A stretch of DNA of 64,000 nucleotides from Haloarchaeobius amylolyticus (GTDB taxonomy: Archaea > Halobacteriota > Halobacteria > Halobacteriales > Natrialbaceae), in contig NZ_JANHDH010000002.1 in assembly GCF_026616195.1 (NCBI RefSeq), positions 434,001-498,000 on the forward strand, in the 5' to 3' direction. How positions within the stretch are numbered: the first letter of the stretch is position 1; each line of letters begins with the position of its first letter. The position numbers were made by a program, and so were the translations under genes. The notes below the pieces were generated by a model. The model had not been told where the DNA came from, searched no databases, and was given only the letters and a program-made list of their open reading frames with translations. Below are positions 29,897-49,995 of the stretch, in pieces.

Positions 29897-29911
29897 CTAT
29901 AGGCCACCTAA
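29897..29911 (-). promoter_or_regulatory. TTA-N9-TAG promoter element of the deacetylase
   Basis: On the minus strand TTA (29911-29909) is followed after nine bases by TAG (29899-29897) within CTATAGTG; the ATG at 29866 is 31 nt on. Same geometry as the other island promoters. A partial site, TAA-N9-TAA, lies a little further up (29930-29944). Confidence 0.45.
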
Positions 29912-30055
29912 CGGGACCGACCCTGCTGCTAAAGGAGTGGGTAAGCCGTTCCATCCCATCGCGAACCAGTGACCCCTATATGAATAGCGGGGTTCGTCCC
30001 ACCGCCCATGTGATGGCGTAACAAGGCTCCTGGGGCCCGGAATCGGCGGTTCGCG

Positions 30056-30097
30056 GCTGGCCCGTCTCCTCCGGAGACGGGCCAGCAGGTATATAAA
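30056..30097 (+). promoter_or_regulatory. perfect 14-bp inverted repeat abutting a TATA box
   Basis: GCTGGCCCGTCTCC (30056-30069), loop TCC, GGAGACGGGCCAGC (30073-30086): every base pairs. TATATAAA follows at 30090-30097 and would start transcription near 30120, before the ATG at 30152. The repeat occupies the place where haloarchaeal activators bind directly upstream of BRE. It could also be a terminator or attenuator, though no gene on either strand ends here. Confidence 0.6.
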
Positions 30098-30151
30098 CCC
30101 TGTCTCGCTGAAGTACCGGAGCGATGGACACTGCCGGAGTACCAGTTGTTG

Positions 30152-31762
30152 ATGACAGAACCCCACTCCTCCGACGACACTCGCGGCACGTTCAGCCGAC
30201 GCGGTTTCCTTCGCGGTGCAGCCGCCTTCGGTCTCGGCGCAGCAGCCCTCTCCGGTGCATCGTCCCCCGCCAGCGCGGCGTCCGGGCCCAGCCGGACGAG
30301 CTACAAGATCAAGGAAGGCACGTACCAGGAGACCACGGTCTACGTGTACGATTCGGGCGTCGCTGGGCCGACGACGATGGTCGTCGGCGGCATCCACGGC
30401 GACGAGAAGTCCGGCTATCTCGCGGCCGACCAGATTGCCCAGTGGTCGGTCACCTCCGGCAAGCTCGTCGTCATGCCGCGGGCGAACGTCGACGCCATCG
30501 CGCTCGACCACCGCCCGTACGACCACGACCTCAACCGGCTGTTCCCGCCGACCGGCGGCACCTGCCAGTCCTCGCTGGCCCGCCACATCTGGAACGCGGT
30601 CGTCGAGCACGACCCCGACTGGATGTTCGACCTCCACAGCTCGCGGGGCATCTACAAGTCCGGCGACGGCGGCGTCGGGCAGGCGCTGTTCCCGACCTGG
30701 ACCTCGCCGGCTCGCGACTACGGCGAGAACGCGGTCGCCGACCTGAACCAGCAGTTCGGCCTCTCCGGCGACGTGGCCTACCGGATGGGCAACACCCTCG
30801 ACGCCGACAACCCGATGCTCATGCACCGGGTCGCGGGCCTGCTCGACCGGCCCGGGTTCATCTGCGAGACGACCGAGAAGCAGCCCCTCGACGAGCAGAT
30901 CCAGTGGCACCTCTACACCGTCGAGCACGTCATGAACCAGTACGGCCAGCAGCGCGGCACGCCGCGGACCACCACGGGTGGGGACGTCGACTTCCACGCG
31001 TCGACGCTCTCGCTGGACGACTACTGGCAGTCGTTCCAGTTCGACCAGTCGCTCTCGTACCCCGCCATCGTCGCGCCCTCGATGTCCTACAACGGCTCGG
31101 ACCCCGCCCACCCGCGCATCGACGACGACAGCAACTCGGGCGGCACGGCCCGCGTCGAGGAGTGGAACTACCTCAACGACAAGCACTACACCGAGAGCGC
31201 CGGCATGCTGGCGTTCCCGGCCAACACCGTCACGCGCTCGGACGACGGCAAGCTCGTCCAGTCGAGCCGCAAGAACGTCGGCGACCAGTGGGAGTACGTC
31301 GAGTTCGACGAGCCCTTCGACGCCACCCCGGTCGTGCTCACCTCGCCGATGAGCGACTGGCACGACACCCCCGTCATCTCGCGGGTCCGGAACGTCACCC
31401 GGTACGGGTTCGACATGCGCCTCCACACCGAGGACGGCGGCCGTGACCTCGCCTGGGACGAACAGGAGCGTACGGCCTGGGTCGCCTTCGAGGAGGGCCC
31501 CGGCACCCTGAACGGGCGCAACTACGAGACCGGCACCCGCAAGATCGACGAGAACTGGGAGTGGATCGACTTCGGGCGCTCGTACGATAACCCGGTGTTC
31601 CTCGCGGCCCCGATGACCTACGAGGGCTGGAACACCGTGACGGTCCGCCACGACGACCTCCGGGCCGACGGCGTCAACGCCTTCCTGCAGGAGGAACAGT
31701 CCGAGGACACCGAGACCGGTCACGTGACCGAGAAGGTCGCCTACTTCGTCATCGACGGGTAG
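30152..31762 (+). CDS. TAT-exported aspartoacylase/M14-like zinc hydrolase with H-type lectin-like tail
   Basis: 536 aa from ATG 30152. TAT signal FSRRGFLRGAAAFGLGAAALSGASSPASA. Residues ~45-270 are a succinylglutamate desuccinylase/aspartoacylase (M14-like) domain: GGIHGDEKSG supplies the H-x-x-E zinc ligands and MFDLHSSRG the later His. Residues ~340-536 hold two beta modules (WEYVEFDEPFDATPVVLTSPMSDWHDTPVISRVRN; WEWIDFGRSYDNPVFLAAPMTYEGWNTVTVRHDDL) resembling the H-type lectin fold. This suggests an enzyme that trims acyl or amino-acid substituents from surface glycans while bound to carbohydrate. Its 3' end overlaps that of the convergent membrane protein by 14 bp. Confidence 0.82.
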   Translation: MTEPHSSDDTRGTFSRRGFLRGAAAFGLGAAALSGASSPASAASGPSRTSYKIKEGTYQETTVYVYDSGVAGPTTMVVGGIHGDEKSGYLAADQIAQWSVTSGKLVVMPRANVDAIALDHRPYDHDLNRLFPPTGGTCQSSLARHIWNAVVEHDPDWMFDLHSSRGIYKSGDGGVGQALFPTWTSPARDYGENAVADLNQQFGLSGDVAYRMGNTLDADNPMLMHRVAGLLDRPGFICETTEKQPLDEQIQWHLYTVEHVMNQYGQQRGTPRTTTGGDVDFHASTLSLDDYWQSFQFDQSLSYPAIVAPSMSYNGSDPAHPRIDDDSNSGGTARVEEWNYLNDKHYTESAGMLAFPANTVTRSDDGKLVQSSRKNVGDQWEYVEFDEPFDATPVVLTSPMSDWHDTPVISRVRNVTRYGFDMRLHTEDGGRDLAWDEQERTAWVAFEEGPGTLNGRNYETGTRKIDENWEWIDFGRSYDNPVFLAAPMTYEGWNTVTVRHDDLRADGVNAFLQEEQSEDTETGHVTEKVAYFVIDG

Positions 31763-33827
31763 GGCCGGCGGCCGTCTCGACGGCGCGAACCATCTCTTCT
31801 CCGCCTCCGCTGCCGTCATCACCGCCACCGTCGTTCCCGTCGTCCGGCACCGCGTCCTGGTCCTCGCCGACACACATCGTCACCTCCCCGTTCGCGTAGA
31901 GGATGCTCCGCTCGGGCCCACACACCTCGTGTCGCTCCACCGGGATGATGCCGGAGCGGTCACCCACCCGGAAGATGGGTGCCCCCGAGGAGTGGTAGCC
32001 GCGATACACCACCACGTCGTTGACCGTGTTGCCCGTCTCCGGGTTCACGAACAGCATCGTCGCCCGCGGGTTCGTCTCCGTCCGGCGGTACACCTCCGTG
32101 TACGGCGAGTCGGTGTACACCGGCTGGTCGTCCGCGACCATGCTCCCGGTCGTGTGCATCCCCGTCAGCTCGGCCTGGTTGTAGCCGAACCGGGGCTGGT
32201 CCTGGTCGAACACGGGGGCGTCGAGGGTCGCGTCGGTCGAGACGAACATGGCGCCCGGGTAGCCCACCGCGAGCAACAGGAACACCATGGTCGCCACCTT
32301 CGCGTTCAGGTTCGTCGCGACGTAGCCCAGGCCGAGCGCGCCGAGGATGGCCATCGGGAGGTACATGAACGCGAACCAGCGCCCCGGCAGGAACAGCCCG
32401 ACGCCCATGATGGGCAGGAACAGGGCGAACAGGATCATCACCGTCACGACGAAGATGAGCAACAGCCGGGCCAGCGAGGTCCGGTCGCTCTTCAGCGCGT
32501 ACAGGCAGCCGAGGACGGTGACCCCGAGCAGGAGCATGAACCCGGCCACGTCGAGGTACGGGATGACCTTGTCGACGATCGAGGGCGTCTGCTCGGCGAC
32601 CGCACCGCCGCCGGAGGTGGCGGTCGACTGGAGGTTGAACAGGCCGGCGGACTCCACCAGCGTCTCCTGGAGCTTCGCGATCATCGCCTCGGTGAACGTC
32701 TCGCCGCGGTACGGCGTCACGCTCCAGACCAGGGTGAGCAACCCGGTCTGGAACACGAGCAGCCCGGAGAGGTCGCGGGTGCTCACGTCCGGGTAGAGCA
32801 CGTCGGTCGTGACGAAGTACTGGACGACGGCCGCGGTCCCGATGGTCACCAGCATGATGAACGCCGACACCTGGTGCGAGAGGGTCAGCGCCACGATGAA
32901 GAAGACGAGCAGGGCGATGTCCCGCGGGTCGCGGTCGTTCAGCACCCGGACGAAGTAGTGGAAGCCCGCGACGAACAGCAACACGCCGAGGCTGGTCGGG
33001 ACGAGGTGGATGCTCCACTTGATGACGTGGTCGCTGAACGCGAACAGGGCCGTCCCGGCCAGCGCCCAGCGGATGGGGACGAACGACCGGCCGGCCGCGT
33101 ACGCCAGCGGGAGCGTCAGCACCATCGCCGCCCCGAGCGACAGGTAGAGCGCGGCTTCGAGGGTCGCGTCGGCCATGATGGCGGTCGCGACCACCAGCAG
33201 GTGGTACAGCGGCGACGCGTAGTACTTCGCGCCGCGCGAGGCGTGCTCGCGCATGACCGCGATGCCACCGGTCTCGCGCACGTCGACCGCGAGCTTGGTG
33301 ATGTGGGTCCAGATGTCGATGCCGACGAAGCCCGCGCTCGTGTGCAGGGCGGTGAACCGCACCGTCGCCGCGAGCGCGACGATCTGGAGCAGGACCAGCC
33401 CCGGGACGAGGTCCTCGTCGGGCGCGAAGAACACCTGACAGAACACCGAGAGCGCGCCGACGGCGGTGACGGCGTGGAACAACGGCGTGCGCTCCCCGGA
33501 CAGGGTGGCGGCGACGATCGCCACCGCGATTGTGACGAAGGTCACCGCGGGCGCGAGTCTGGCGGCCGGGGTCGCCAGTGTCGGGAGGCTGTGCCCGAGG
33601 CCCGTCTCGCGCCGCCGGCTGCTCCTGGCCGACCGCCACGCAATCAGGTAGAGGATGCAGGCGGTGGCCAGCACCAGCGGCAGCGTCTCCGCGAACAGGT
33701 GCGTCAGGACGAACCGGAGGGGGAACAGCGCGAGTGCGAGCAACAACCCGACGATGGCGACGTCCCGGTCGAAGGGGCGGTCGTGTATCCAGGCGACGAC
33801 GCGACTGCCACCGGACGGCGTACTCAT
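31749..33827 (-). CDS. polytopic membrane protein, probable GT-C type glycosyltransferase
   Basis: 692 aa from ATG 33827 (a TTG 12 nt upstream is less likely). About 12-14 transmembrane helices, then an extracellular C-terminal domain with an acidic Gly-rich linker (DDGNDGGGDDGSGGGEE) and a final amphipathic end. A loop after the early helices carries GFVGIDIWTHITKLAVDVRETG and a later SPLYHLL, reminiscent of the acidic catalytic loops of GT-C enzymes using lipid-linked sugars. The family was not recognised with certainty. Location among glycan genes and an island-type promoter support a role in lipid-linked glycan assembly or transfer. Confidence 0.7.
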   Translation of the reverse strand: MSTPSGGSRVVAWIHDRPFDRDVAIVGLLLALALFPLRFVLTHLFAETLPLVLATACILYLIAWRSARSSRRRETGLGHSLPTLATPAARLAPAVTFVTIAVAIVAATLSGERTPLFHAVTAVGALSVFCQVFFAPDEDLVPGLVLLQIVALAATVRFTALHTSAGFVGIDIWTHITKLAVDVRETGGIAVMREHASRGAKYYASPLYHLLVVATAIMADATLEAALYLSLGAAMVLTLPLAYAAGRSFVPIRWALAGTALFAFSDHVIKWSIHLVPTSLGVLLFVAGFHYFVRVLNDRDPRDIALLVFFIVALTLSHQVSAFIMLVTIGTAAVVQYFVTTDVLYPDVSTRDLSGLLVFQTGLLTLVWSVTPYRGETFTEAMIAKLQETLVESAGLFNLQSTATSGGGAVAEQTPSIVDKVIPYLDVAGFMLLLGVTVLGCLYALKSDRTSLARLLLIFVVTVMILFALFLPIMGVGLFLPGRWFAFMYLPMAILGALGLGYVATNLNAKVATMVFLLLAVGYPGAMFVSTDATLDAPVFDQDQPRFGYNQAELTGMHTTGSMVADDQPVYTDSPYTEVYRRTETNPRATMLFVNPETGNTVNDVVVYRGYHSSGAPIFRVGDRSGIIPVERHEVCGPERSILYANGEVTMCVGEDQDAVPDDGNDGGGDDGSGGGEEMVRAVETAAGPTRR

Positions 33828-33857
33828 TGGTTCGCCCAACTGCTCGTACCCTCATTG

Positions 33858-33872
33858 TTATCGGCTGGGTAA
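33858..33872 (-). promoter_or_regulatory. TTA-N9-TAA promoter element of the GT-C-like gene
   Basis: Minus strand CGCTTACCCAGCCGATAACA: TTA, nine bases, TAA ending at 33858, 31 nt before the ATG at 33827. It closely resembles the glmU element (CGCTTA at the same place, CGATAACAA at the TATA position). Confidence 0.55.
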
Positions 33873-34002
33873 GCGGATGCGGGCCCGATACCGGCGGTTT
33901 ACGCCCTCCGAAACATTGCAGAACGGTCGTGAAAACGTGCAAAATCCGCAACGAACGGCAACGACTGTCCGGTACTAAGTGGGTAACCCGAGGTGCGTTG
34001 GG

Positions 34003-35931
34003 ATGATGTCTAATAGGTTGACGGACCTAGGAAGGGCGGATCGACGAGAGATACTGACACTTCTTGGCGGACTCGCCGGCTCTGCTGCGGTCTCGGGGGC
34101 GGCTGCTGCCGACGACGGGGGCTACGACACGGTGGTCGACATCGTCGACGCGGGTGCGGACCCGACGGGCGAGGAGCCAATCGACGGCGTCCTCGCCGAG
34201 GTAGCCGACGACGACACCCTGGTCGAGTTCCCGGACGGCCGCTACAAGATCAACCGGGTGGACCTCTACGACACCTCGAACCTCGGGCTCCGCGGCGTGG
34301 GCGACGACGTGACGCTCGTGGCGGACGAGGACCACGCCGAGGACTTCTGGATCGCCGGTGCGAGCACGCGCGACCTCCTCTTCGAGAACTTCACGCTGGA
34401 CCACACCGGCGACGGCGTCGACCCCTCGGTCGAGTTCGGGAGCCACGACGGCCTCGTCGTCCGGAACATCGTGAAGAAGGGCTCGCAGGACGGTGACAAC
34501 ACCGCCTTCGGGTTCCGGACGTACCACGACTGGAGCGAGACGCTGGTCGAGAACCTCCAGCTGCCGGACGGGAGCAAGGCGGTCGGCCCCGTCGGCATCT
34601 GGGTCGACGGCGACGGGACGACCACGTTCCGGGACTGCCACGTCGAGGGGTACGGCAACAACGGCCTGTACGCCTCCTGGTCGAACGGGCCGGTCCACGT
34701 CGAGGGCGGCGTCTTCAAGGACAACGACCGGGCGCAGGTCCGCCTCGGCAGCGCGGGCAGCTACGTCGACGGGGCCGAGGTCGTCGTCGACGACCCCTCG
34801 GGCGACGACCCCTGTACCGGGGTCCGCATCTCCGACGGGCTCGGGCCGGTCACCATCTCGGACTGCGACATCTCCATGACGGGCGGCCGCGGGACCGGTG
34901 CCGTGTTCGTCGCGGAGGACGGCGGTCACATGGTGCTCGAGGACTCGCGCATCCACGTCGGGCCGGACTACACGGCGAACCTCTCGGGCGGGACCCGGAC
35001 CTCGCCCGGCGTCTACGTCGACGAGGCACCGGACGCCCCGGAGCTGGACCACGACATCGTCCGGACCTCGATCACCGGCGGCGGGGACTACTACCCCGCC
35101 ATCGTCGGCAGGCGCGACGACGTGAACGTCCTCGACTCCTGTATCCAGTGGGACGGCCCGGTCGGCATCCGGTTCCACGGGACGACCGCGAACGACGTGA
35201 AGAACACCAACATCACGGTCGACGGCCCGGCCATCGAGGGCGACGCAGAGGTCGTCGACGTGACCTCCGGCGACTCGTGTCCGATGCCGAACCTCGGCGG
35301 CGGTGGCGACGACGGGAGCTCGTCGGACGACGGCGGCGATTCGTCGGGCTCGCTCGCCGACGTCCCGCTGCCCATCAACGCCAGCCGGATGACCTACCCG
35401 ACGATGGGGACGAGCAACGAGAACCCGACGCTGACCGTCTACGGGAACTTCGTCTACCCCAACACGAAGCGGTTCGTCGAGGAGAACCTCCCGGCCATCG
35501 TCTCCGAGTTCGTCGAACCGGGCCACATCAACGTCCAGTTCCGGTCCATCGCGTACCCGACCGGCCACTACCTCAACAGCGTCGAGGGCGAGGAACGTCT
35601 CGCCCAGCTCGCACTCGGCGTCTGGGACAAGAACAACTGGGAGAACTACTGGGGCGTCTTCGAGTACCTCTTCGCGAACCAGGGCGACATCGAGTGGCAG
35701 ACCTGGGGCGACGCGAAGAACATGCTCCAGGACGCGGGCGTCGAGCGCGTCGCGGGCTGGCTCCCCGGCCTCGCCTCCGACGACTACTACGGCGACGAGG
35801 TCTACCAGTCCCGGCTCGACGCGGCCGACGCCGGCCTCGACTACGTCCCGCAGGTCGAGTTCCAGGGCGACCTCGCGGACGCGAACATGGCGACCGGCGA
35901 CCTGCTGGAGTGGATCGGCGACCGGCTCTGA
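34003..35931 (+). CDS. TAT-exported beta-helix/DsbA-like fusion (paralogue)
   Basis: 642 aa from ATG 34003 (ATG 34006 equally possible; a GTG at 33979 would add 8 residues). Signal ADRREILTLLGGLAGSAAVSGAAAADD. Beta-helix at ~45-430 with the same strand pattern as the protein at 26648 (GNNGLYASWSNGPVHVEGGVFKDN). A Gly/Ser/Asp linker (GGGGDDGSSSDDGGDSSGS) leads to the DsbA-like domain: LTVYGNFVYPNTKRF with Y485-P-N-T488 in place of CXXC, WENYWGVFEYLFANQGD, and YVPQVEFQG with cis-Pro616. Loss of both cysteines in both copies, with the rest of the fold preserved, implies a selected non-redox use. Shorter than its paralogue by about 23 residues. Confidence 0.82.
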   Translation: MMSNRLTDLGRADRREILTLLGGLAGSAAVSGAAAADDGGYDTVVDIVDAGADPTGEEPIDGVLAEVADDDTLVEFPDGRYKINRVDLYDTSNLGLRGVGDDVTLVADEDHAEDFWIAGASTRDLLFENFTLDHTGDGVDPSVEFGSHDGLVVRNIVKKGSQDGDNTAFGFRTYHDWSETLVENLQLPDGSKAVGPVGIWVDGDGTTTFRDCHVEGYGNNGLYASWSNGPVHVEGGVFKDNDRAQVRLGSAGSYVDGAEVVVDDPSGDDPCTGVRISDGLGPVTISDCDISMTGGRGTGAVFVAEDGGHMVLEDSRIHVGPDYTANLSGGTRTSPGVYVDEAPDAPELDHDIVRTSITGGGDYYPAIVGRRDDVNVLDSCIQWDGPVGIRFHGTTANDVKNTNITVDGPAIEGDAEVVDVTSGDSCPMPNLGGGGDDGSSSDDGGDSSGSLADVPLPINASRMTYPTMGTSNENPTLTVYGNFVYPNTKRFVEENLPAIVSEFVEPGHINVQFRSIAYPTGHYLNSVEGEERLAQLALGVWDKNNWENYWGVFEYLFANQGDIEWQTWGDAKNMLQDAGVERVAGWLPGLASDDYYGDEVYQSRLDAADAGLDYVPQVEFQGDLADANMATGDLLEWIGDRL

Positions 35932-35956
35932 GCCGAGACGGGCGACCGTCCCGCGT

Positions 35957-35971
35957 TTAACACTGGTGTAA
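35957..35971. promoter_or_regulatory. TTA-N9-TAA dyad with extended palindrome
   Basis: The core TTAACACTGGTGTAA is flanked by CGCG on both sides, so the dyad extends over about 27 bp with CAC/GTG inner arms. It lies between the second beta-helix gene and the lipoprotein deacetylase, too far (about 200 nt) from the latter's start to be its core promoter. Operator candidate. Confidence 0.4.
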
Positions 35972-36130
35972 TCGCGGTCTCCGGCGGGTGAGCGACGGTT
36001 CTCGCGAGCGGCCCGCCCCGGCGGATTTGACGGGTTTCGAGACGGTTTCCACGCGACTCTCGACAGCGGGGTCGTCCGGGACGGTCGCGTCCGTGACGCC
36101 CGCTCGTCCTCGCAGCGCACGGACAGGTGC

Positions 36131-36145
36131 TTATCCTGATTATAA
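36131..36145 (+). promoter_or_regulatory. TTA-N9-TAA promoter element of the lipoprotein deacetylase
   Basis: CTTATCCTGATTATAATA: TTA, nine bases, TAA ending at 36145, exactly 31 nt before the ATG at 36176. The same 18-base string, with two differences, recurs upstream of the gene at 56833. Confidence 0.55.
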
Positions 36146-36175
36146 TATTACGGGTGTCGAGAGAAAACCGACTCG

Positions 36176-37480: not shown

Positions 37481-37597
37481 CGAGGCCGGCCCGTTCGTCT
37501 CGGCCCGGTCCCCGCTTCGCAGTCGCGTAACGACGACCTGTTCTTCGTACGCTAGTGGCGACGTGACGCCCACAGTGGCGTCGCCGCCGCGTGCACC

Positions 37598-38176
37598 TCA
37601 CTCGCGTCCTCGCCCGGTCACGGCGCGGTAGAGCCCGGCCGCGACCGGGAAGCCGTCGACCGCCCAGAGGACGGTCACGGCGGTCACCAGCGCCAGCTCG
37701 AACAGCAGGAACCCGGAGAGCCCGCCGGTCAGGAGGTCGTGCAGGAAGCGCAGGAAGTACCGCGAGGCGTTGGTCAGGACGCCGTCGACGGGCGCGCCCT
37801 CGCGCTCCATGACCGGCCACAGCACGGCGTGGACCCAGAGCCCGTCGCCCCGCATCGCCGGGTAGATGACGTCGCCGAGCAGGTGCGAGAGGTAGCCGAC
37901 CGCGAAGGCCGCGAACAGGTGCGGGCGGTCGAGCCGCCGGGTCAGCGCCGCGACACCGGCGAGGAGGAACGGGGCGACGAACAGCGAGTGGACGACGGAG
38001 TAGCCGGTCGCGGTCACGCCGAGCGTCCACGAGAGCGGTTTGTCGACGAGGTCCGGGAGGAGCGTCGCCAGGGCGACCACGGCGACCGCGACGCCGCGCG
38101 GTCGCTCACCCGCCGTGACGCGGACGGCCAGCGAGTAGCAGACGTAGCCGAACGCGAGGTGTTCCCACGGCCACAT
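37598..38176 (-). CDS. YdjM-type membrane-bound metal-dependent hydrolase
   Basis: 192 aa with about four to five helices. Motifs of the YdjM/LexA-regulated membrane hydrolase family: MWPWEHLAFGYVCYSL at the start (W-x-H-x-x-x-G), LLPDLVDKPLSW, GYSVVHSLFVAPF and VGYLSHLLGDVIYPA, which supply conserved His/Asp metal ligands. In archaea the function is unknown; phospholipid or lipid-linked substrates have been suggested for the family. Located downstream of the DUF1616 gene on the same strand (105 bp gap), possibly co-transcribed. Confidence 0.85.
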   Translation of the reverse strand: MWPWEHLAFGYVCYSLAVRVTAGERPRGVAVAVVALATLLPDLVDKPLSWTLGVTATGYSVVHSLFVAPFLLAGVAALTRRLDRPHLFAAFAVGYLSHLLGDVIYPAMRGDGLWVHAVLWPVMEREGAPVDGVLTNASRYFLRFLHDLLTGGLSGFLLFELALVTAVTVLWAVDGFPVAAGLYRAVTGRGRE

Positions 38177-39235: not shown

Positions 39236-39250
39236 TTACCGGCAGAGTAA
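39236..39250 (-). promoter_or_regulatory. TTA-N9-TAA promoter element of the DUF1616 gene
   Basis: Minus strand GCCTTACTCTGCCGGTAATA: TTA, nine bases, TAA ending at 39236, 31 nt before the ATG at 39205. Confidence 0.5.
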
Positions 39251-39298: not shown

Positions 39299-39313
39299 TT
39301 AACAGCGGAGTAA
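39299..39313 (+). promoter_or_regulatory. TTA-N9-TAA dyad upstream of a small gene
   Basis: GACTTAACAGCGGAGTAAAC; the next plus-strand start (39383) is 70 nt downstream, implying a ~40-nt leader if this is the promoter. With 39236-39250 it makes a back-to-back pair in the divergent region, 48 bp apart. Confidence 0.4.
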
Positions 39314-39719: not shown

Positions 39720-40010
39720 TCACGAGGTGAGCTCGGGCGCGATGTGTTCTCGCTCCCACTGGTAGCGCTCCCTGATGGCCTCCTTCCCGTCCTCGGATAT
39801 CTCGTAGAAGTTCGTTCGACCGTCGATGCAGCCCTTCTCGACCAGGCCTTTCTCGACGAGTGTATCGAGATTCCGGTAGAGACGGCCGTGTGGGAGGGTA
39901 CAGTCGAGCGACTCCTCGATCTCTTTCTTCAGTTCTCGACCGCTGGGCTCGTCCATCTTCGTGAGCACGACGAGCAGGTTGTGCTGGAATCCGGTCAGAT
40001 CTGTCCTCAT
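39720..40010 (-). CDS. PadR-family transcription regulator
   Basis: 96 aa. Winged helix with FQHNLLVVLTKMDEPSGRELKKEIEESLDCTLPHGRLYRNLDTLVEKGLVEKGCIDGRTNFYEISEDGKEAI: the L-P-H-G-x-L-Y-x-x-L-x-x-L signature of PadR-like regulators. Such proteins dimerise through a C-terminal helix and usually repress. It is a single gene divergent from glmM, 218 bp away, so glmM is a possible target; no dyad specific to it was identified. Confidence 0.9.
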   Translation of the reverse strand: MRTDLTGFQHNLLVVLTKMDEPSGRELKKEIEESLDCTLPHGRLYRNLDTLVEKGLVEKGCIDGRTNFYEISEDGKEAIRERYQWEREHIAPELTS

Positions 40011-40184: not shown

Positions 40185-40199
40185 TTACCACTCGTATAC
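40185..40199 (+). promoter_or_regulatory. TTA-N9-TAC promoter element of glmM
   Basis: TTA (40185-40187), nine bases, TAC (40197-40199) in GTATACTTATACC; the ATG at 40229 is 30 nt on. A near match to the island promoter class. Confidence 0.4.
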
Positions 40200-41563: not shown

Positions 41564-41585
41564 CCAGCCGGCTAGCACGTTCCCT

Positions 41586-41600
41586 TTAGCTCATCGCTAG
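41586..41600 (+). promoter_or_regulatory. TTA-N9-TAG promoter element of the alpha/beta-hydrolase lipoprotein
   Basis: TTA (41586-41588), nine bases, TAG (41598-41600) leading into TAGTAAAC; the ATG at 41630 is 30 nt on. Confidence 0.45.
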
Positions 41601-41629
41601 TAAACCCGGTTCCCGACGTACCGGGACGT

Positions 41630-42430: not shown

Positions 42431-42444
42431 CGGATAACGGTCGC

Positions 42445-42459
42445 TTACGAGCGCATTAA
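42445..42459 (+). promoter_or_regulatory. TTA-N9-TAA dyad in the gap before glmU
   Basis: CGCTTACGAGCGCATTAA matches the island promoter consensus. Transcription from it would begin near 42485-42490. No protein-like gene follows before glmU; see the RNA candidate at 42490. Confidence 0.4.
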
Positions 42460-42489
42460 ACCGGCTCGCACGTCGGGACAGTCGCGTTA

Positions 42490-42712
42490 TGTGGCTCGTA
42501 GTAATGGGGAACCGGGTTCAAGGCACGAGTGCCGGTGGTCACACTGGCGAGGTGAAAGCCCTCAGCAGTCGTCGCCCAGCGCAACATCACAGTCATCGCC
42601 CGGGAGTTGCCCACCTCCCGGTCGATCTTCGTCCATCCCCCACCGGACGACCGATCCCCTCAGATGTTGGCAGGGCACCCCCAACCATCCCATCTTCTCG
42701 TTGCCATTTTTT
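42490..42712 (+). ncRNA. candidate non-coding RNA or long leader
   Basis: The 359-bp gap 42431-42789 has an island-type promoter at its left end, a perfect 7-bp hairpin (CCGGGAG 42600-42606 with CTCCCGG 42615-42621), a nested CGGTCG/CGACCG pair (42619-42624 and further on) and a T6 run at 42707-42712, a typical archaeal terminator. Its base composition is unlike coding DNA. A 413-codon open frame through it and into glmU has implausible amino-acid content. Low confidence; only the order promoter-hairpin-T-run supports it. Confidence 0.22.
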
Positions 42713-42744
42713 AGCACACTCCCATCCCGCAGTGGCCTGCTCGC

Positions 42745-42759
42745 TTAACGCGTCGATAA
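42745..42759 (+). promoter_or_regulatory. TTA-N9-TAA promoter element of glmU
   Basis: CGCTTAACGCGTCGATAACA: TTA (42745-42747), nine bases, TAA (42757-42759), with ATAACAA in the TATA position; the ATG at 42790 is 31 nt on. This is the reference example of the class: CGCTTA upstream, CGATAACAA at TATA, leaderless start. Confidence 0.55.
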
Positions 42760-42789
42760 CAAAAGGGTACTGTCGTGAATGCGAGAACG

Positions 42790-43971
42790 ATGCAAGCAGT
42801 CATCCTCGCAGCTGGCGAAGGAACGCGGATTCGCCCCCTCTCCGACAACGTCCCCAAACCGATGGTGCCGACCGCCGACGGCCCGCTCGTCGAGCGGACC
42901 GTCGCGGCGGCGGTCACGGCTGGCGCCGACGAACTCCTCATGGTCGTGGGGTACGAGGGCGAGGCGGTCCGCGAGTACTTCGGCGACGAGTACGAGGGGA
43001 CCCCGATCCGCTACGCGGTACAGGAGGAACAGCGCGGCACGGCCCACGCGGTGGCGGCCGCCGCAGAGTACATCGACGGCCCGTTCGCGGTGCTGAACGG
43101 CGACAACTGCTTCGACACGGAGAGCGTCGTCGAGCTGTTCGAGCGCCGCCCCAGCGTGCTCGCGTACCGGGCCGAGGAGCCGTCGAACTACGGCGTACTC
43201 CACACCGAGGACGGCATCGTGACGGGCGTGACCGAGAAACCCGACGACCCACCGGGCAACCTGGTCAACGCGGGTGCGTACGTCTTCCCGGAGGCGGCCC
43301 GCGACTGGCTCGAGGTCGAGGAGAGCGAGCGCGGCGAACACGAGATCACCGACGTGCTCGACCGCGTCGTCGCCGAGTTCTCGGTCACGCCGGTCGAGGT
43401 CGACCGCTGGCTCGACGTGGGCCGCCCGTGGGAACTCCTCGCCGCCAACGAGACCTACCTCGCCGAACTCGACGCCCGCGTCGAGGGCGAGGTCAGCGAC
43501 GACGCCCACCTCGAGGGGACCGTCGTCGTCGAGGAGGGCGCGACGGTCAAGCCCGGCGTCGTCATCGAGGGCCCGGTCCTCGTCCGGTCCGGCGCGACCG
43601 TCGGGCCGAACGCGTACGTGCGGGGGGCGACCCTCATCGACGAGGACGCGAAGGTCGGCAACGCCGTCGAGGTGAAGAACAGCGTCGTCGGCAAGCGCTC
43701 CAGCGTCGCCCACCTCGCCTACGTCGGTGACTCCATCCTCGGCCGTGACGTGAACTTCGGCGCGGGCACGACCGTCGCCAACCTGCGCCACGACGGCGAG
43801 CCGGTGCGCCACACCGTCAAGGGCGAGCGCGTCTCGACCGGCCGCCGGAAGTTCGGGGTCGTCGTCGGTGACGGCGCGAAGACCGCCATCGACACGAGCC
43901 TGAACGCCGGCGTGACCCTCTCGACCGGGGCGACGACCAGCCCCGGCGAGACCGTGACGCGTGACCGGTAA
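42790..43971 (+). CDS. glmU: bifunctional GlmU-type sugar-1-phosphate nucleotidyl/acetyltransferase
   Basis: 393 aa from ATG 42790 (GTG 42775 possible; promoter spacing favours the ATG). N-terminal nucleotidyltransferase: VILAAGEGTRIRPLSDNVPKPMVP, AVLNGDNCF, NYGVLHTEDG, VNAGAYVF. C-terminal left-handed beta-helix of hexapeptide repeats (about 235-393: VEGEVSDDAHLEGTVVVEEGATVKPGVVIEGPVLVRSGATVGPNAYV). It would acetylate GlcN-1-P and form UDP-GlcNAc, the last steps after GlmS and GlmM. A dTDP- or UDP-glucose pyrophosphorylase with hexapeptide tail is the alternative; context favours GlmU. Confidence 0.85.
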   Translation: MQAVILAAGEGTRIRPLSDNVPKPMVPTADGPLVERTVAAAVTAGADELLMVVGYEGEAVREYFGDEYEGTPIRYAVQEEQRGTAHAVAAAAEYIDGPFAVLNGDNCFDTESVVELFERRPSVLAYRAEEPSNYGVLHTEDGIVTGVTEKPDDPPGNLVNAGAYVFPEAARDWLEVEESERGEHEITDVLDRVVAEFSVTPVEVDRWLDVGRPWELLAANETYLAELDARVEGEVSDDAHLEGTVVVEEGATVKPGVVIEGPVLVRSGATVGPNAYVRGATLIDEDAKVGNAVEVKNSVVGKRSSVAHLAYVGDSILGRDVNFGAGTTVANLRHDGEPVRHTVKGERVSTGRRKFGVVVGDGAKTAIDTSLNAGVTLSTGATTSPGETVTRDR

Positions 43972-43974
43972 CTG

Positions 43975-44100
43975 ATGCGGCGCCAGTACCACGCATCGGC
44001 CTCCCCCTACGCACCACCCTCCCCGGACGCATCGCCCGCACAGCAGGCCACACGACGCAGCCCCGCCTCGCGGGGACGACACGCCGAGACCACCACATGA
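43975..44100 (+). CDS. possible short upstream ORF coupled to the flippase
   Basis: 41 codons between glmU and the flippase (MRRQYHASASPYAPPSPDASPAQQ...), with its TGA overlapping the flippase ATG (ATGA). Composition (Pro, Arg, Ser, Ala) is not that of a folded haloarchaeal protein, so translation, if any, would serve coupling. It may simply be open by chance. Confidence 0.15.
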   Translation: MRRQYHASASPYAPPSPDASPAQQATRRSPASRGRHAETTT

Positions 44101-45731
44101 ACCGTAACATCGTCACCGCGTTCCTGTCCACCGTCGGGAGTCGCCTCGTCGGGCTCATCGTGACGGCCGCAGTGACACCGCTGCTCATCCACTTCCTCGG
44201 CGTCACCATCTACGGGCGGTACGCGACCATCATGTCGGTGTTCGCCCTGCTCACCATCTTCATGAGCTCGGGGACGAACACGGGCGTGAAGAAGTACATC
44301 GCCGAGGAGCGCTCGATGAACTGCTGGAAGGACCACGTCTTCGGCTACTACTTCCGGCTCGCGACGCTGCTGGCGGTGCTCGCGGCCATCGGCTTCGCGG
44401 TCGCCGCCTACACCGGCGTCGTCGCCATGGTGTGGGGGGCGGAGTTCGAGCCGTACTTCTACCTGCTCGGGGCGATGGCGCTCGCGGTCCAGTACCGCGA
44501 GTACATCCGCCGGACACTGATGGGGCTCAAACTGGAGCACGTCTCCGAGCCCCTGAACGTCCTCTACCGCATCGTCTTCGGCGTCGTCGGCGTCAGCCTC
44601 GCCGCACTGGAGTTCGGGGTCCCCGGGCTCATCGTCGCCCAGATCGTCGCGAGCCTGGTCGCCGTCGGCGTCGGGCTGGCGGTCGTCCGCGGCCGGCTCT
44701 CGTTCGACGCCATCGTGACGACGACGCCCGACCGGTTCCCCAGCTCGGACCTGTTCAACTTCAACCACCTCACCATCGCGTACGTCTTCCTGCTCACCTC
44801 GCTGTACCACATCGACGTGCTGATGCTGGAGGCGTTCAAGACCAGCGAACTGGTCGGCTACTACAAGGCCGCCCTCGTCATCGTGCAGTTCCTCTGGATC
44901 CTCCCGCGGTCGGTCCAGGGCGTGATGGTCCAGTCCACCTCCGACCTCTGGGAGCAGAACAAGGTAGAGCGCATCACCGACCTCGCCTCGCGGACCACCC
45001 GGTACGTCCTGCTGTTGACGCTGCTGCTCGCCATCGGGATGGCCGCGCTGGCCTCGACGTTCGTCCCGCTGTACCTCGGCAGCGAGATGCGCCCGGCGGT
45101 CACGCCGCTGTTGCTCTTGCTGCCCGGGACGGTGGCGTTCGCGGTCGCCCGCCCGCTGCTGGCCATCAGCCACGCGAAGGGCGACGTGAAGGCACTCATC
45201 GCGGCGACGTGGGCCTCCGCGACCCTGAACTTCGCGCTGAACCTCAACCTCATCCCGGCGTACGGCATGGTCGGGGCGGCGGTCGCGACGACCATCGGCT
45301 ACGGGTCGCTCCCGCTGTTCAACATGCTCATCGCGCGGGACCTCGGCTACGACCCGCTGGAGGACGTTCGCATCGTGCGCATCGTCGTCACCGGCGCGGT
45401 CGCGGCGGTCCCCATCTACTTCCTGCCGGCGGCCATCGAGAACGACCTGCTCGCGCTCGTCGTCGTACCCGTCGTCGGGTTCGTCGTCTACGCGCTGGCG
45501 GCGGTGCTGACCGGCGCGGTCGACGTGGGCGAGGTCCTCGACTTCTGCTCGTCGCTCCCGGGGCCGCTCGGCGAGAAGGCGAGCGAACTCGCCGACGCCG
45601 CCGACGGCGGCTCGCCGATCAAGGACCAATCACCGGAGGTCAGCGACCGGGTGCAACAGATACTCGCGCTCACGGGCATCGTGCTCGTGGTGTCGGCGGT
45701 CGCGTTGCTCACCGGCGGCGCTGGGCTCTGA
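44097..45731 (+). CDS. polysaccharide/lipid-linked oligosaccharide flippase (MATE/MOP superfamily)
   Basis: 544 aa with about 14 transmembrane helices. N-terminal MNRNIVTAFLSTVGSRLVGLIVTAAVTPLLIHFLGVTIYGRYA is the classic polysaccharide_synt start, and YYKAALVIVQFLWILPRSVQGVM the mid-protein segment. After the core a ~60-residue cytoplasmic insert (LGEKASELADAADGGSPIKDQSPEVSDRVQQ) precedes one extra C-terminal helix. It would flip a lipid-linked glycan across the membrane, a role proposed for AglR in Haloferax N-glycosylation. Probably co-transcribed with glmU (125 nt gap, no promoter seen). Confidence 0.88.
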   Translation: MNRNIVTAFLSTVGSRLVGLIVTAAVTPLLIHFLGVTIYGRYATIMSVFALLTIFMSSGTNTGVKKYIAEERSMNCWKDHVFGYYFRLATLLAVLAAIGFAVAAYTGVVAMVWGAEFEPYFYLLGAMALAVQYREYIRRTLMGLKLEHVSEPLNVLYRIVFGVVGVSLAALEFGVPGLIVAQIVASLVAVGVGLAVVRGRLSFDAIVTTTPDRFPSSDLFNFNHLTIAYVFLLTSLYHIDVLMLEAFKTSELVGYYKAALVIVQFLWILPRSVQGVMVQSTSDLWEQNKVERITDLASRTTRYVLLLTLLLAIGMAALASTFVPLYLGSEMRPAVTPLLLLLPGTVAFAVARPLLAISHAKGDVKALIAATWASATLNFALNLNLIPAYGMVGAAVATTIGYGSLPLFNMLIARDLGYDPLEDVRIVRIVVTGAVAAVPIYFLPAAIENDLLALVVVPVVGFVVYALAAVLTGAVDVGEVLDFCSSLPGPLGEKASELADAADGGSPIKDQSPEVSDRVQQILALTGIVLVVSAVALLTGGAGL

Positions 45732-45794
45732 GTGGACTGTCGCGGAGAGAACGGTCGGCGGTCGTGTTCTCGGGCGCGGTCGAGTCGCGCCTGC

Positions 45795-47144
45795 TCAACT
45801 CGTGACGCGGTCGATGAGTGCAGAGAGCGTCTTCCTCGCGGGGGACTGCCGGTCGTACACCGGGCGGTCCTCCGTCTCGGCGACGAGTTCGCGGACGTGC
45901 TCGCGGACCGACTCGGTGCGGTGGTCCTCGCGCTTGCCGGTCTCGACCTCGAGTGCGGTCTCCATCAGCGACCGGTGCGAGCGGTTCCGGACGAGGTTCA
46001 ACAGCGCGAGCATCTGTGACTCCTGGTCGTCCGACGCCCAGGCGGTGTCGGGGCTGAAGTGCTGTTCGGGGTGGCGGACCTGCGAGACGAGGTCGCCCGC
46101 GAGCGCGGTCCGCAGCCAGCGCGTGTAGCGCTGGTGGAAGATGGCCACGGCGACCTCCTGCCAGTGGGCCCGGAGCTGGTCCCGGTCCGCGGTCAGCGAG
46201 GCGACGTGGTGCAGGTACGCGAGGCGGTTCCCGGGGTCGACCCGGTCGCCCGCCTCGTCGACCGTCTCGTCGACCGTCTCGGTCGGGACGAGGTCGACCG
46301 CCACCGGCTCGTCGCCGTCGAAGGCGACCTCGATGGCGAGGCTCCACTGGGTCTTCGGGCGCTCTGGCATCGGGAACAGGAAGTTGCCGAGGCTGTAGAA
46401 GATGGGCGTGTCGTCGTACACCTCCCAGCCCTGCGGGACGTGCGGGTGGTGCCCGACGACGAGGTCCGCGCCAGCGTCGACGAACTCGCGCAGTCGCGTC
46501 TGTCGGTGGAGTGGTGGGAAGGGGACGTACTCGACGCCGCCGTGGGCCGCGACGATGGTCACGTCGGCATTCGAGGCGGCGACGCGCTCCAGCGCCCCCG
46601 GCGACCCGAGGTGGGCGGTACCGGGCTCGTCGCCGTCCGCGATGCCGAACTCGCGCTCGCAGAAACTGAAGACGGCGACCGAGGTCCCGTCGACCTCGAA
46701 CCGGGCGGGCGCCATGGCGGCGGACTCGCTCTCGCCGGCGCCACAGCTCGCCAGCCCGACGTTCTCGCAGGCCGCCGTCGTGGCCCGGAGCCCCTCGGCC
46801 CCGTAGTCCATCAGGTGGTTGTTCGCGAGCGTCGCCACGTCGAACCCGGCCGCCCGGAGGACGTCGGGGACGTCACGGTCCACGTTCAACGTCGGCCCGG
46901 ACTTCCCGAGTGGCTCGCCGGCACCGGCGACCGGCGCCTCGAGGTTGACCATCGAGAGGTCGGCGTCGCGGATCCGAGAGCTGAGCGGCTGTGCGACGGG
47001 GGCGTCTCTTGCCTCCCTGTCGCGGTACTTCACGTCGCCGGCGGCGAAGAGCGACCAGGTCGCGTCCGACGAGTCGGCCGCGAGGTCGAGTCGACCCAGC
47101 GGCGTCGGCTCGTCGGTCGCCTCTCGCCAGTCCCGTGTCTGCAT
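45795..47144 (-). CDS. CapA-like (PGA_cap) metallophosphoesterase-fold protein
   Basis: 449 aa from ATG 47144 (GTG 47156 also possible). CapA/PGA_cap domain: WSLFAAGDVKYRDR, DLSMVNLEAPV, DVATLANNHLMDYGAEGL, VTIVAAHGGVEY and DLVVGHHPHVPQGWEVYDDTPIFYSLGNFLF. These are the metal-binding loops of the calcineurin-like fold. In bacteria the family works in poly-gamma-glutamate capsule synthesis; here it may serve another surface polymer. No signal peptide is evident. The C-terminal ~130 residues are helical and charged and are absent from short CapA proteins. Convergent with the flippase. Confidence 0.87.
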   Translation of the reverse strand: MQTRDWREATDEPTPLGRLDLAADSSDATWSLFAAGDVKYRDREARDAPVAQPLSSRIRDADLSMVNLEAPVAGAGEPLGKSGPTLNVDRDVPDVLRAAGFDVATLANNHLMDYGAEGLRATTAACENVGLASCGAGESESAAMAPARFEVDGTSVAVFSFCEREFGIADGDEPGTAHLGSPGALERVAASNADVTIVAAHGGVEYVPFPPLHRQTRLREFVDAGADLVVGHHPHVPQGWEVYDDTPIFYSLGNFLFPMPERPKTQWSLAIEVAFDGDEPVAVDLVPTETVDETVDEAGDRVDPGNRLAYLHHVASLTADRDQLRAHWQEVAVAIFHQRYTRWLRTALAGDLVSQVRHPEQHFSPDTAWASDDQESQMLALLNLVRNRSHRSLMETALEVETGKREDHRTESVREHVRELVAETEDRPVYDRQSPARKTLSALIDRVTS

Positions 47145-47195
47145 GGCCGTCACCACGGTCTGGGGGCGAAAAAGCCCCGACGACCGTCCCGACGC

Positions 47196-47210
47196 TTAGC
47201 GAGTCGATAA
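47196..47210 (+). promoter_or_regulatory. TTA-N9-TAA dyad between capA-like gene and repeat-protein gene
   Basis: CGCTTAGCGAGTCGATAACA, nearly identical to the glmU promoter element in the same orientation. If it drives the plus-strand gene at 47344 the leader would be about 108 nt; it also lies 52 nt before the minus-strand capA-like start and, being a dyad, could serve that gene. Confidence 0.45.
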
Positions 47211-47343
47211 CAATGTTCCGGGCGAGTCGACTCCGAAGCGAGCAACCCGTGTACCGATATCGCACCCTCTCCCCCTGCGAAGCGACAGCGTCGCCCCGTC
47301 GAACAGCCCGGTCGTGTCCGCGCCACAGGCGAGGTGGGCCCGG

Positions 47344-47982
47344 ATGACGTCGTCACAGCGCGCCCTCGCCCTCCTCGGCATCCTGTTCCTGTTCGTCGGC
47401 ATCGCCGTCGCGGCCGTCCCGGGAGGCGAGGTCGGCCTCCCGATGCCTGCCGACGACGGGTCGGGCACCGAGCAGCCGACGGTGACGACACCGGCGTCGA
47501 CCAGTGACACCCAGTCGTCCACGTCCGACTCGACCACGACGTCCGCGACCGAGACGGCGACGGACACGACGACGGAGACGGGAACGACCACGGGGTCGAC
47601 CACGACGGACACGACCACCGGAACGTCGACCGAGACGACGACGGCCACGTCGACGCAGACCGAGACGGAGACGGAGACGGACACCCCGACGCAGACCGAC
47701 ACTGAGACGCGGACCCCGACCGATACGTCGACCTCGACCGATACGTCGACCTCGACCGATACGTCGACCTCGACCGATACGTCGACCTCGACCGATACGT
47801 CGACCTCGACCGATACGTCGACCTCGACCGATACGTCGACCTCGACCGATACGTCGACCTCGACCGATACGTCGACCTCGACCGATACGTCGACCTCGAC
47901 CGATACGTCGACCTCGACCGATACGACGACGGACGACGACTCGTCCATCCTCTCGACGGTCTTCGGCGGCTGGCTCTTCTGA
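47344..47982 (+). CDS. membrane-anchored Thr/Ser-rich repeat protein
   Basis: 212 aa from ATG 47344. One N-terminal membrane helix (LALLGILFLFVGIAVAAVPGG), then about 165 residues of Thr/Ser/Asp-rich low complexity, of which the central part is eleven identical copies of the hexapeptide DTSTST plus degenerate flanking copies, ending SSILSTVFGGWLF with a short hydrophobic tail. It resembles a heavily O-glycosylated mucin-like stalk. No catalytic domain. The 18-bp DNA repeat makes copy-number change by slippage likely, so its length may vary between strains. Confidence 0.65.
   Translation: MTSSQRALALLGILFLFVGIAVAAVPGGEVGLPMPADDGSGTEQPTVTTPASTSDTQSSTSDSTTTSATETATDTTTETGTTTGSTTTDTTTGTSTETTTATSTQTETETETDTPTQTDTETRTPTDTSTSTDTSTSTDTSTSTDTSTSTDTSTSTDTSTSTDTSTSTDTSTSTDTSTSTDTSTSTDTSTSTDTTTDDDSSILSTVFGGWLF
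47722..47919 (+). repeat. eleven perfect tandem copies of an 18-bp unit
   Basis: Unit GATACGTCGACCTCGACC; copies begin at 47722 and every 18 bp to 47902, with a partial variant copy (GATACGACG) at 47920. There is no base difference among the eleven, although synonymous changes would be tolerated, so the array is young or homogenised. Encodes (DTSTST)11. Confidence 0.95.
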
Positions 47983-48240
47983 CGGCGCGCCGGCGGTGAT
48001 CAGGCCGGGACCGGGGCCTTCCCGGGGCCCGCCACGCTGTTCTCGATTCCCGCTCTTCGCGACGCACGCGGCTCTCGACACACACTGTTCTCGGGGTACT
48101 GCGCCTTCGACCAGCGTCGCCACTGGCGGTGTGAGGTAACACGGTGCCGTCCGTCTCAGCAGCAGGCAGGCACAGTCGCGGTCGCGTGCCCGGGCCGAAT
48201 CACGTCGCAGCGAGAAGGAGTCCGCGGTCGGTGTGGCGGG

Positions 48241-49869
48241 TCATTCGAGGTACCCGAGGTCGCTCAGGCGGTTCTCGACGGCAGCCTCGGGCGAGTCCCG
48301 GTCCGCGCCCGTCTCGGCGGACCGGTAGGCGCGCCCGCCCGCCCCCTCGACGGCCGGCAGCACCTCGCCGTCCATGCGCTCGTTGTAGGGGATGCCGAGC
48401 GCGGCGAGGATCGTCGGCGCCACGTCGAACAGGTGGGCGTCCGAGAGGTCGGCGTCGCCGTCGACGCCCTCGCCCCAGGCGGTGACGATGCCGTCGAGCT
48501 TGTGGTTCCACGTCTCCGTCGGGTCCGCGAAGTACTCGTCGCGGACCTGGTCCGAGAGGAAGTACTGGAAGTTCCGCGGGATGGTGACGATGTCGACCGC
48601 GTCCTCGACGTGCTCGCCCTCGAAGTACTGCTCGCGGGGGACGACCTCGTCGAAGACCGGGTTCCCGTCGGGGTCGGTCACCGACCGCAGCGACTCGATG
48701 ACCTCGGCGCGGACGTCGTCGTACTCCGACACCGGGACGACCCCGTCGGGCTCGCGGCCCTCCACGTTGAGGCGGACGCCGAGCTCGGTCCGCGAGCGCA
48801 GGTAGGCGACGGACTCGGGGAAGTCGACCTGCTTGTTCCCGGTCCGGGCCACGTCCTCGGGGGCGTAGCGCATCGCGATGTCGTCGAGGTTGACCGCCTC
48901 CAGTGCCTGCCGGATGCGGCTCGCGGTGAGGCCGACCTTGGCCGCGCCGGAGGCCATCTTCTCGACGAGGCCGGGCTCCCAGGAGTCGACGTCCTTCCCC
49001 TCGCGGAGTTCGTTCCGGATGGGGTTCCACGACGGCATGCCCTTGCCGCCGTTGGTGACCTCGACGACGCCCTCGTCGTGGAGGTAGTCGTTGACGCGGA
49101 ACTCGTATCCCTCGTACTTCCCCATGCCGTGGTCGCTCGCCACGAACACGGTGTCGGGGTCGTGCTCGTCGATGATGCGGCTGATCTGGTCGTCGGTCTC
49201 CTCGTAGACCGAGCGGATCTTCTCCCAGTCGCCGCCGAACTCGTGGAAGACGGTGTCGGTCTTCTGGAACTGGACGAAGCCGAAGTCGGCGTCGTGCTTC
49301 TCGGTGAGGTAGCTGAACGCCTCGCCGCGCATGCGGACGAGGGTCCGGTACTCGTCCATCTTCTCGGCCTCGCTGTAGGAGTCGTCGCCCCGGGAGTAGG
49401 CGGGGTAGACGCGGTACTCGCCGAGCTCGTCGCGGACCTCGTCGAGGGTGCCCTCGGGGTGACAGGTCGGGTCCTCGGGGCCGATGAAGCCCGGCAGGAT
49501 GGCGCCGTCGATCTCGGCGGGTGGGTGCGTGACCGGCGCGTTCACGACGACGCTGGTCAGCCCGTGCTCGTCGAGTATCTCCCAGAGCGTGAGTTCGTCG
49601 ACGTGGTCGGCGCTGCTGACGTGCCAGTCGTAGCCGTCGTAGGAGACGAAGCCGAACACGCCGTGTTTACCGGGGTTGACGCCGGTGTACATCGAGGGCC
49701 AGGCGCTCGGGGTCCACGGGGGAATCTGGGACTCCAGCGGCCCGACCGCGCCCTCGTCGTTCAGTCGTTCGAGCGTCGGTATCGTGTCGGTCTCTGCGAG
49801 CCGGTCGAAGACGGGCAGACAGCCCGCGTCGATACCGACGAGGAGGACGTCGAGTCCGTCGTCACTCAT
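48241..49869 (-). CDS. alkaline-phosphatase-superfamily phosphodiesterase/nucleotide pyrophosphatase
   Basis: 542 aa. Type I phosphodiesterase fold: LDVLLVGIDAGCLPVFDRL (first metal Asp), the nucleophile region PPWTPSAWPSMYTGVNPGKHGVFGF, FVQFQKTDTVFHEFG and VFVASDHGMGKYEG (metal Asp-His). No signal peptide, so cytoplasmic. Archaeal members occur repeatedly in polysaccharide and sulfated-glycan clusters and may cleave or transfer phospho- or sulfo-sugars; the reaction is unknown. A 29-codon ORF overlaps its start by 8 nt and may be its real leader. Confidence 0.87.
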   Translation of the reverse strand: MSDDGLDVLLVGIDAGCLPVFDRLAETDTIPTLERLNDEGAVGPLESQIPPWTPSAWPSMYTGVNPGKHGVFGFVSYDGYDWHVSSADHVDELTLWEILDEHGLTSVVVNAPVTHPPAEIDGAILPGFIGPEDPTCHPEGTLDEVRDELGEYRVYPAYSRGDDSYSEAEKMDEYRTLVRMRGEAFSYLTEKHDADFGFVQFQKTDTVFHEFGGDWEKIRSVYEETDDQISRIIDEHDPDTVFVASDHGMGKYEGYEFRVNDYLHDEGVVEVTNGGKGMPSWNPIRNELREGKDVDSWEPGLVEKMASGAAKVGLTASRIRQALEAVNLDDIAMRYAPEDVARTGNKQVDFPESVAYLRSRTELGVRLNVEGREPDGVVPVSEYDDVRAEVIESLRSVTDPDGNPVFDEVVPREQYFEGEHVEDAVDIVTIPRNFQYFLSDQVRDEYFADPTETWNHKLDGIVTAWGEGVDGDADLSDAHLFDVAPTILAALGIPYNERMDGEVLPAVEGAGGRAYRSAETGADRDSPEAAVENRLSDLGYLE

Positions 49870-49951
49870 CGATATCCCTCGACAGCGTCGTCGGTTCGGC
49901 GACCGTGCCCGCGTGGCTACGCAGGTGTGTCGGTACTCGTCGTCGGTGCAT
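49862..49951 (-). CDS. possible leader peptide upstream of the phosphodiesterase gene
   Basis: 29 codons (MHRRRVPTHLRSHAGTVAEP...), TGA overlapping the phosphodiesterase ATG by 8 nt. Its ATG at 49951 stands 30 nt after the island promoter element 49981-49995, the leaderless spacing seen for bona fide genes, which is the best argument that ribosomes start here. Not protein-like in composition; a coupling or regulatory role is inferred. Confidence 0.3.
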   Translation of the reverse strand: MHRRRVPTHLRSHAGTVAEPTTLSRDIDE

Positions 49952-49980
49952 GTGGGTGCCTTGTAGAGAGGTATACGTTA

Positions 49981-49995
49981 TTATCCGAGTCGTAA
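49981..49995 (-). promoter_or_regulatory. TTA-N9-TAA promoter element of the phosphodiesterase unit
   Basis: Minus strand CGCTTACGACTCGGATAATA: TTA, nine bases, TAA ending at 49981; the next minus-strand ATG (49951) is 30 nt on, the phosphodiesterase ATG 112 nt on. A second GCTTA half-site (CGCTTAGG, minus strand) lies near 50034. Confidence 0.5.

Follow-up and report, generated by a model that had tools for sequence, protein, structure and literature searches.

The window, that is, the whole analysed stretch of 64 kb (G000:C2:434001-498000 of a 4.6 Mb genome), carries polysaccharide synthesis and export genes from about 25 kb onward. The enzymes encoded are phosphomannomutase, a nucleotidyltransferase, a GlmS-type aminotransferase, a UDP-glucose dehydrogenase-type enzyme and glycosyltransferases; export and surface genes comprise a flippase, a PGA_cap capsule protein, exported deacetylases and beta-helix proteins. 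The regulators among the scanned locus proteins are represented by DUF7344, DUF7343 and PadR, not by TrmB, and no TFB gene was found among these proteins. The PadR gene (39720-40010) was rejected as the regulator sought, since its homolog is present in one or two loci only.

A core protein of 591 aa (61764-63539), whose similarity to asparagine synthase is weak (Pfam E 0.0044), occurs in most loci of this type in Natrialbaceae. It was rejected as a marker of the promoter motif described below because of loci with few or no dyads (L112, L114, L115 and L128, no DUF7344 gene nearby).

Two DUF7344-DUF7343 gene pairs (25198/25845 and 54383/52857) bracket the locus, which suggests that the two families work together; a joint DUF7344-DUF7343 system is possible. 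The genes are as follows.

25198..25779, strand +: the second of the two DUF7344 genes here, on the opposite edge of the locus
25845..26342, strand +: second DUF7343 winged helix-turn-helix (wHTH) gene, paired with 25198-25779
52857..54320, strand -: rival or partner regulator; signal peptide, TSP3 repeats, transmembrane segment, C-terminal DUF7343 wHTH
54383..54985, strand -: candidate regulator; winged-helix protein of the DUF7344 family, with two hydrophobic helices at the C-terminus

Genes of the BAT and HTH_10 type are found on both sides. Two adjacent BAT + HTH_10 genes (64628-67499; L010:628-3499) follow a conserved glycosyltransferase gene just beyond the window. A third BAT/HTH_10 gene (22441-23145) stands just before the locus and is followed by an AIM24-family gene.

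Inverted repeat at the promoters of the locus

The element shared by these promoters is a 15-bp inverted repeat with the consensus TTATCG-N3-CGATAA, not a lone TTA plus a TATA box. The right half of the palindrome merges with BRE/TATA, and the TTA noticed in the preliminary description is its left half-site. Dyads away from TATA positions are symmetric (G-n-TTA-n-C-N5-G-n-TAA-n-C). In target promoters, the dyad occupies positions about -45 to -31 relative to the start codon, with the right half on the TATA start and the last base about 31 nt before the start codon; TA steps of control promoters are concentrated at about -27 to -31. The TATA is near the position usual for leaderless genes, leaderless status being predicted. 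The sites at promoters and upstream of genes, with their strands, are listed below.

29897..29911, -: promoter dyad TTA-N9-TAG of an exported polysaccharide deacetylase gene, 31 nt to ATG 29866
33858..33872, -: promoter dyad TTACCCAGCCGATAA, 31 nt before ATG 33827, 692-aa protein with no Pfam match
36131..36145, +: promoter dyad of a polysaccharide deacetylase gene, 31 nt to ATG 36176
39236..39250, -: promoter dyad of the DUF1616 gene, 31 nt to ATG 39205; found in this position in 20 loci
40185..40199, +: promoter site TTA-N9-TAC of the phosphomannomutase gene, 30 nt to ATG 40229
41586..41600, +: promoter site TTA-N9-TAG of a gene for a lipoprotein-like product without Pfam match, 30 nt to ATG 41630
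42745..42759, +: promoter dyad of the nucleotidyltransferase gene, 31 nt to ATG 42790; kept in 6 loci
47196..47210, -: dyad upstream of the PGA_cap capsule gene 45795-47144, at 52 nt from its ATG and 40 nt from an alternative GTG
49981..49995, -: promoter dyad of the phosphodiesterase/nucleotide pyrophosphatase gene, before 49951/49869
56737..56751, +: dyad whose TATA reads TAATAAT; the 56833 glycosyltransferase operon follows
11878..11892, +: possible site outside the main group, with a TAG half, 32 nt to ATG 11924 of the PQQ-propeller protein gene
13994..14008, +: possible site outside the main group, with a TAT half, 31 nt to ATG 14039

Sites recorded without a strand:

25776..25790: dyad lying above the TATA box of the DUF7343 gene 25845
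35957..35971: additional dyad in the intergenic region upstream of 36176
39299..39313: additional dyad, located 63 bp upstream from the promoter dyad at 39250
42445..42459: extra intergenic dyad, with a partial site 42 bp onward, at 42487
52177..52191: additional dyad upstream of the glmS-type gene 50125-51945, accompanied by a partial site at 52168 (-)
56665..56679: dyad upstream of the UDP-glucose dehydrogenase-type gene 55222-56655
60360..60374: dyad upstream of the ATP-grasp gene 60552

The sites before 11924 and 14039 lie outside the dense region and have imperfect right halves (TAG and TAT); these individual weak sites (11878, 13994) may be due to chance. A 29-codon ORF (49862-49951, -) starts at the distance expected from the dyad at 49981..49995 and overlaps the start of the next gene. 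This ORF could possibly encode a leader peptide; the transcript from the dyad may simply have an 82-nt leader rather than be leaderless.

In all ten promoters cited earlier, the step from TTA to TAN is exactly 12 bp and the start codon follows after 30-32 nt, and the eight exact TTA-N9-TAA dyads cited are present and intergenic by the gene calls made here. Further exact dyads are found at 25776 and in several promoter copies. The earlier consensus CGCTTA-N8 has to be corrected: it has no copies in the window as written, the best copies being CGCTTA-N6-CGATAACA.

Scanning of the window for TTA-Nk-TAA (k from 0 to 30) gave 14 exact dyads at N9 and 0-2 at each other spacing, except for seven at N12. 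N12 was rejected as a second element, its peak being an echo of TAATAA or of TATA boxes of the TANTAA form. TTA-N9-TA occurs 43 times in the window vs. about 7 for other spacings, both strands counted. The whole genome has 55 exact dyads, 18 of which fall into the 48-kb polysaccharide locus C2:459776-508140, vs. 0.39 expected from the outside rate (P ~5e-24). In the sampled genome stretches, the N9 peak extends past the window only into the adjoining 20 kb (L010, with 4 exact sites), and 140 kb of C1 show no such peak (4 vs. about 12). At the TATA position of promoters of other regions, TTA-N9-TA was found in 2 of 179 vs. 0.7 for other spacings, and the claim of a shared cluster-specific element survived this comparison with housekeeping promoters. 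The results for the own genome are based on sampled stretches and pattern searches. The pattern TTA-N9-TAATAA is too loose for presence or absence to be judged by counts, since reversed controls are equally frequent, and only its clustering is informative.

The motif had been spotted by eye, and chance or an AT-rich intergenic composition could be proposed as its source. Selection bias is excluded by the spacing scan, the untouched genome stretches, the whole-genome counts and the independent genomes considered below; the controls of spacing, position and conservation refute this explanation for the cluster as a whole and leave it scarcely credible. The element announced in the preliminary description is thus borne out by its spacing, its regional confinement and its near-absence from control promoters.

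Conservation of the element and its association with DUF7344

Close homologs of the DUF7344 gene 54383-54985 exist in many genera. Their surroundings, taken as 20 loci of 20 kb, contain 79 exact TTA-N9-TAA vs. about 6 at each other spacing. A set of 34 named loci (Haloferax, Halobellus, Natronorubrum, Halostella, Haladaptatus, Halocatena, Halobacterium and others) contains 153 vs. about 14; the two sets have a few genomes in common. The distance to the start codon peaks at 31 nt, with 72 sites at 30-34 nt, where each of five other tested spacings has from none to ten. The 112 promoter sites across genera give TTA[TC]C-N4-CGATAATAAA, and the dyad at 33858..33872 matches this cross-genus consensus perfectly. 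Conservation in orthologous promoters is confirmed by the same N9 spacing upstream of orthologous glycan genes in other genera: the site precedes orthologs of two genes of the locus, glycosyltransferase 63532-64536 (22 loci) and DUF1616 (20 loci). Plasmid pHME505 of Haloferax mediterranei carries similar kinds of genes with 11 dyads. Most of the comparative loci were fetched with DUF7344, so that the DUF7344 linkage there is partly by construction.

A search starting from the pattern is independent of fetching, though correlational. It was made in 243 genomes with the strict pattern TTA-N7-GATAATAAA and a homolog threshold of E 1e-38 or better; the figures that follow hold among the matches listed. 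The pattern is present in 74 of the 243 genomes and a DUF7344 homolog in 91; the pattern occurs in 61 of the 91 genomes with DUF7344 vs. 13 of the 152 without it (Fisher P ~6e-22). At a stricter cut near E 5e-45, these values are 54 of 64 and 20 of 179. A DUF7344 gene lies within 20 kb of 83 of the 106 strict-pattern sites. Discordant genomes comprise 13 with the strict pattern and no close DUF7344 homolog, and 30 with the reverse. The strict order-wide pattern misses looser sites, including every site in G000, and the co-occurrence therefore understates the sites.

Clusters recognised by the pattern only (G000, G002, G004, G022, G029, G032, G049 and G057) contain a close DUF7344 homolog, the exception being a smaller second cluster in G057, about 60 kb from the homolog. 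The dyad is absent from the loci of other DUF7344 paralogs in G000 (L119-L127). Where a genome has an extra DUF7344 copy in a locus free of the motif, a motif cluster is found at another place (G265 C7, G266 C17, G267 C41, G268 C14). In the DUF7344 tree, all 49 motif-linked rows are inside one group of 58 rows with a support of 85/99, which is below the star threshold. This group excludes nearly all paralogs of the same genome and includes several motif-free extra copies; the long-branched 25198-25779 protein is also inside it. Rows from a fetched stretch with a stop codon were left out of the protein alignments. Comparison of the recognition helices of motif-linked and motif-free copies showed no obvious differences.

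The product of 54383-54985 matches DUF7344 (PF24035) with 107.3 bits vs. a gathering cut-off of 27.8. The predicted winged helix (residues 28-122) has pLDDT values of mostly about 90 or more; two hydrophobic helices, predicted to be membrane helices, come after it. Foldseek matches, all above E 0.04, support the winged helix and not a specific relative. No NCBIfam model match was found for DUF7344, proteins of this family are mostly annotated as hypothetical, and the open-licence literature yielded no description of DUF7344 or of the motif.

Candidate binding protein and proposed sign of regulation

The dyad is probably bound by the cluster-encoded DUF7344 protein (54383-54985), judging from the co-occurrence of gene and site. 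Another candidate is the transmembrane DUF7343 wHTH protein (52857-54320 and its relatives), alone or with DUF7344. From its sequence this protein looks like a sensor, and it could serve as a one-component sensor with an extracellular TSP3 region. The DUF7343 gene adjoins the DUF7344 gene both here and on pHME505 of H. mediterranei ATCC 33500 (RS17105 for DUF7343, E6P09_RS17100 for DUF7344); a DUF7343 gene is present within 20 kb in roughly three quarters of the motif loci and in none of the sampled motif-free loci of G000. However, DUF7343 is found in 60 of 61 genomes, whether the motif is present or not, and is missing within 20-40 kb of several motif-rich loci (Natrononativus plasmid L132, Halostella L085, G034 L065), so binding by DUF7343 is considered unlikely. 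A Bat-type HTH_10 activator, encoded by the two genes at 64628-67499 or by the one at 22441-23145, would be suggested by the BAT/HTH_10 genes flanking the locus. Homologs of the two genes beyond the window occur in only 8 and 3 of 47 motif loci, too few to count as conserved, and the dyad does not lie wholly upstream of BRE and TATA as a Bat/GvpE-type site does; such binding is very improbable. The preliminary description had proposed a dedicated activator of a surface-glycan regulon: the dedicated regulator is supported, the Bat/GvpE-like placement of the TTA upstream of BRE-TATA is not.

Repression by occlusion is regarded as the likelier sign of regulation, because the dyad covers the BRE/TATA start and because of the precedent of TrmB. 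In the malE promoter of Pyrococcus furiosus, a palindrome at BRE/TATA mediates repression by TrmB, and activating sites lie upstream of it (PMC4158304); the dyad likewise overlaps BRE/TATA, as a TrmB-type operator does. Alternatively, the dyad could be an activator site, at which the bound dimer recruits TFB/TBP to a weak TATA box in a GvpE-like manner. The register fixed within a few bases is in favour of this, as is the placement of extra sites in helical phase (neighbouring sites are spaced about 11, 22, 33, 42 and 63 bp, near multiples of the helical turn) and mostly upstream of the promoter site (34 vs. 5 downstream, weak evidence, since the downstream stretch open to sites is short). GvpE requires a UAS upstream of TATA and BRE (PMC8241225), but BRE and the TATA start, which should stay free with an upstream activator, lie under the right half of the dyad. 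A 15-bp repeat straddling BRE with a half on TATA fits occlusion at least as well as activation, and activation is a serious, though less probable, possibility. The fixed distance to TATA and start codon would also agree with a basal promoter class, recognised by a specialised TFB/TBP pair in the absence of a separate regulator, in which the TTA extends the promoter upstream. Against it, the symmetric dyad also occurs away from TATA positions and in helically phased tandems, the element is confined to one functional cluster, and the scanned locus proteins include no TFB; this explanation is very improbable.

With DUF7344 as the binder, the element could well be the operator of a haloarchaeal surface-polysaccharide regulon, more probably acting in repression than in activation. 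The dyad would be bound by a symmetric wHTH dimer, and the right half-site CGATAA would double as BRE and TATA start, locking the position about 31 nt before the start codon. Extra upstream copies, often on the same helix face, could allow cooperative binding. DUF7344, predicted to be tethered to the membrane by its two helices, would block TFB/TBP and keep glycan synthesis off until an envelope signal releases the repression.

Known systems resemble this one in part. TrmB at malE (TACT-N3-AGTA) is a winged-helix protein with a short palindrome on the BRE/TATA of sugar-related genes; it differs in sequence and spacing and is a sugar-responsive repressor of transport genes, whereas the candidate here belongs to a different family (PMC4158304). 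CsmR of Haloferax volcanii (TATCA-N4-TGATA) is a haloarchaeal wHTH protein with a palindrome placed relative to TATA, and its half-sites resemble the TATCG/CGATA of the dyad (PMC13286277). However, it is a 13-kDa Lrp/AsnC-like protein of motility and shape with another spacing, and its sites are described as adjacent to the TATA box, which the dyad shares (PMC13286277). The upstream activating sequences of GvpE and Bat are likewise promoter-proximal regulator sites of haloarchaea; the 20-nt UAS of GvpE lies upstream of TATA and BRE, whereas the dyad includes BRE and the TATA start (PMC8241225). ArnR/ArnR1 of Sulfolobus, likened to DUF7344 by description, are membrane proteins with an N-terminal HTH region regulating archaeal surface genes; they differ in the archaellum as target and in the involvement of phosphorylation (PMC13286277).

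The palindrome most likely marks a dedicated, previously undescribed surface-polysaccharide switch. More tentatively, DUF7344 could be a new membrane-tethered archaeal regulator family, whose motif clade, perhaps with a DUF7343 sensor partner, switches exopolysaccharide clusters across Halobacteria via a palindrome sharing BRE/TATA. No description of how haloarchaea control the timing of surface polysaccharides was found in the open-licence literature, and DUF7344 carries no functional assignment; a conserved operator and a candidate binder make both questions testable at the bench in growable, engineerable strains, and with the motif, members of the regulon can be recognised in the sequences of many genera.

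Some copies are remote from the clusters. An isolated perfect copy of the cross-genus consensus, TTATCCGGTCGATAA, is located far from the cluster at G000:C2:963197-963211 (L111:10198-10212) and is possibly a distant member of the regulon; C1:145593 is another candidate outside the cluster. Identical copies of TTACTGTATGGATAATAAA are found in several related genomes, at G127:C1:463960, G064:C1:869685, G181:C2:1865513 and G195:C1:488736, on contigs other than those with clusters; they are probably a conserved promoter of some other gene.
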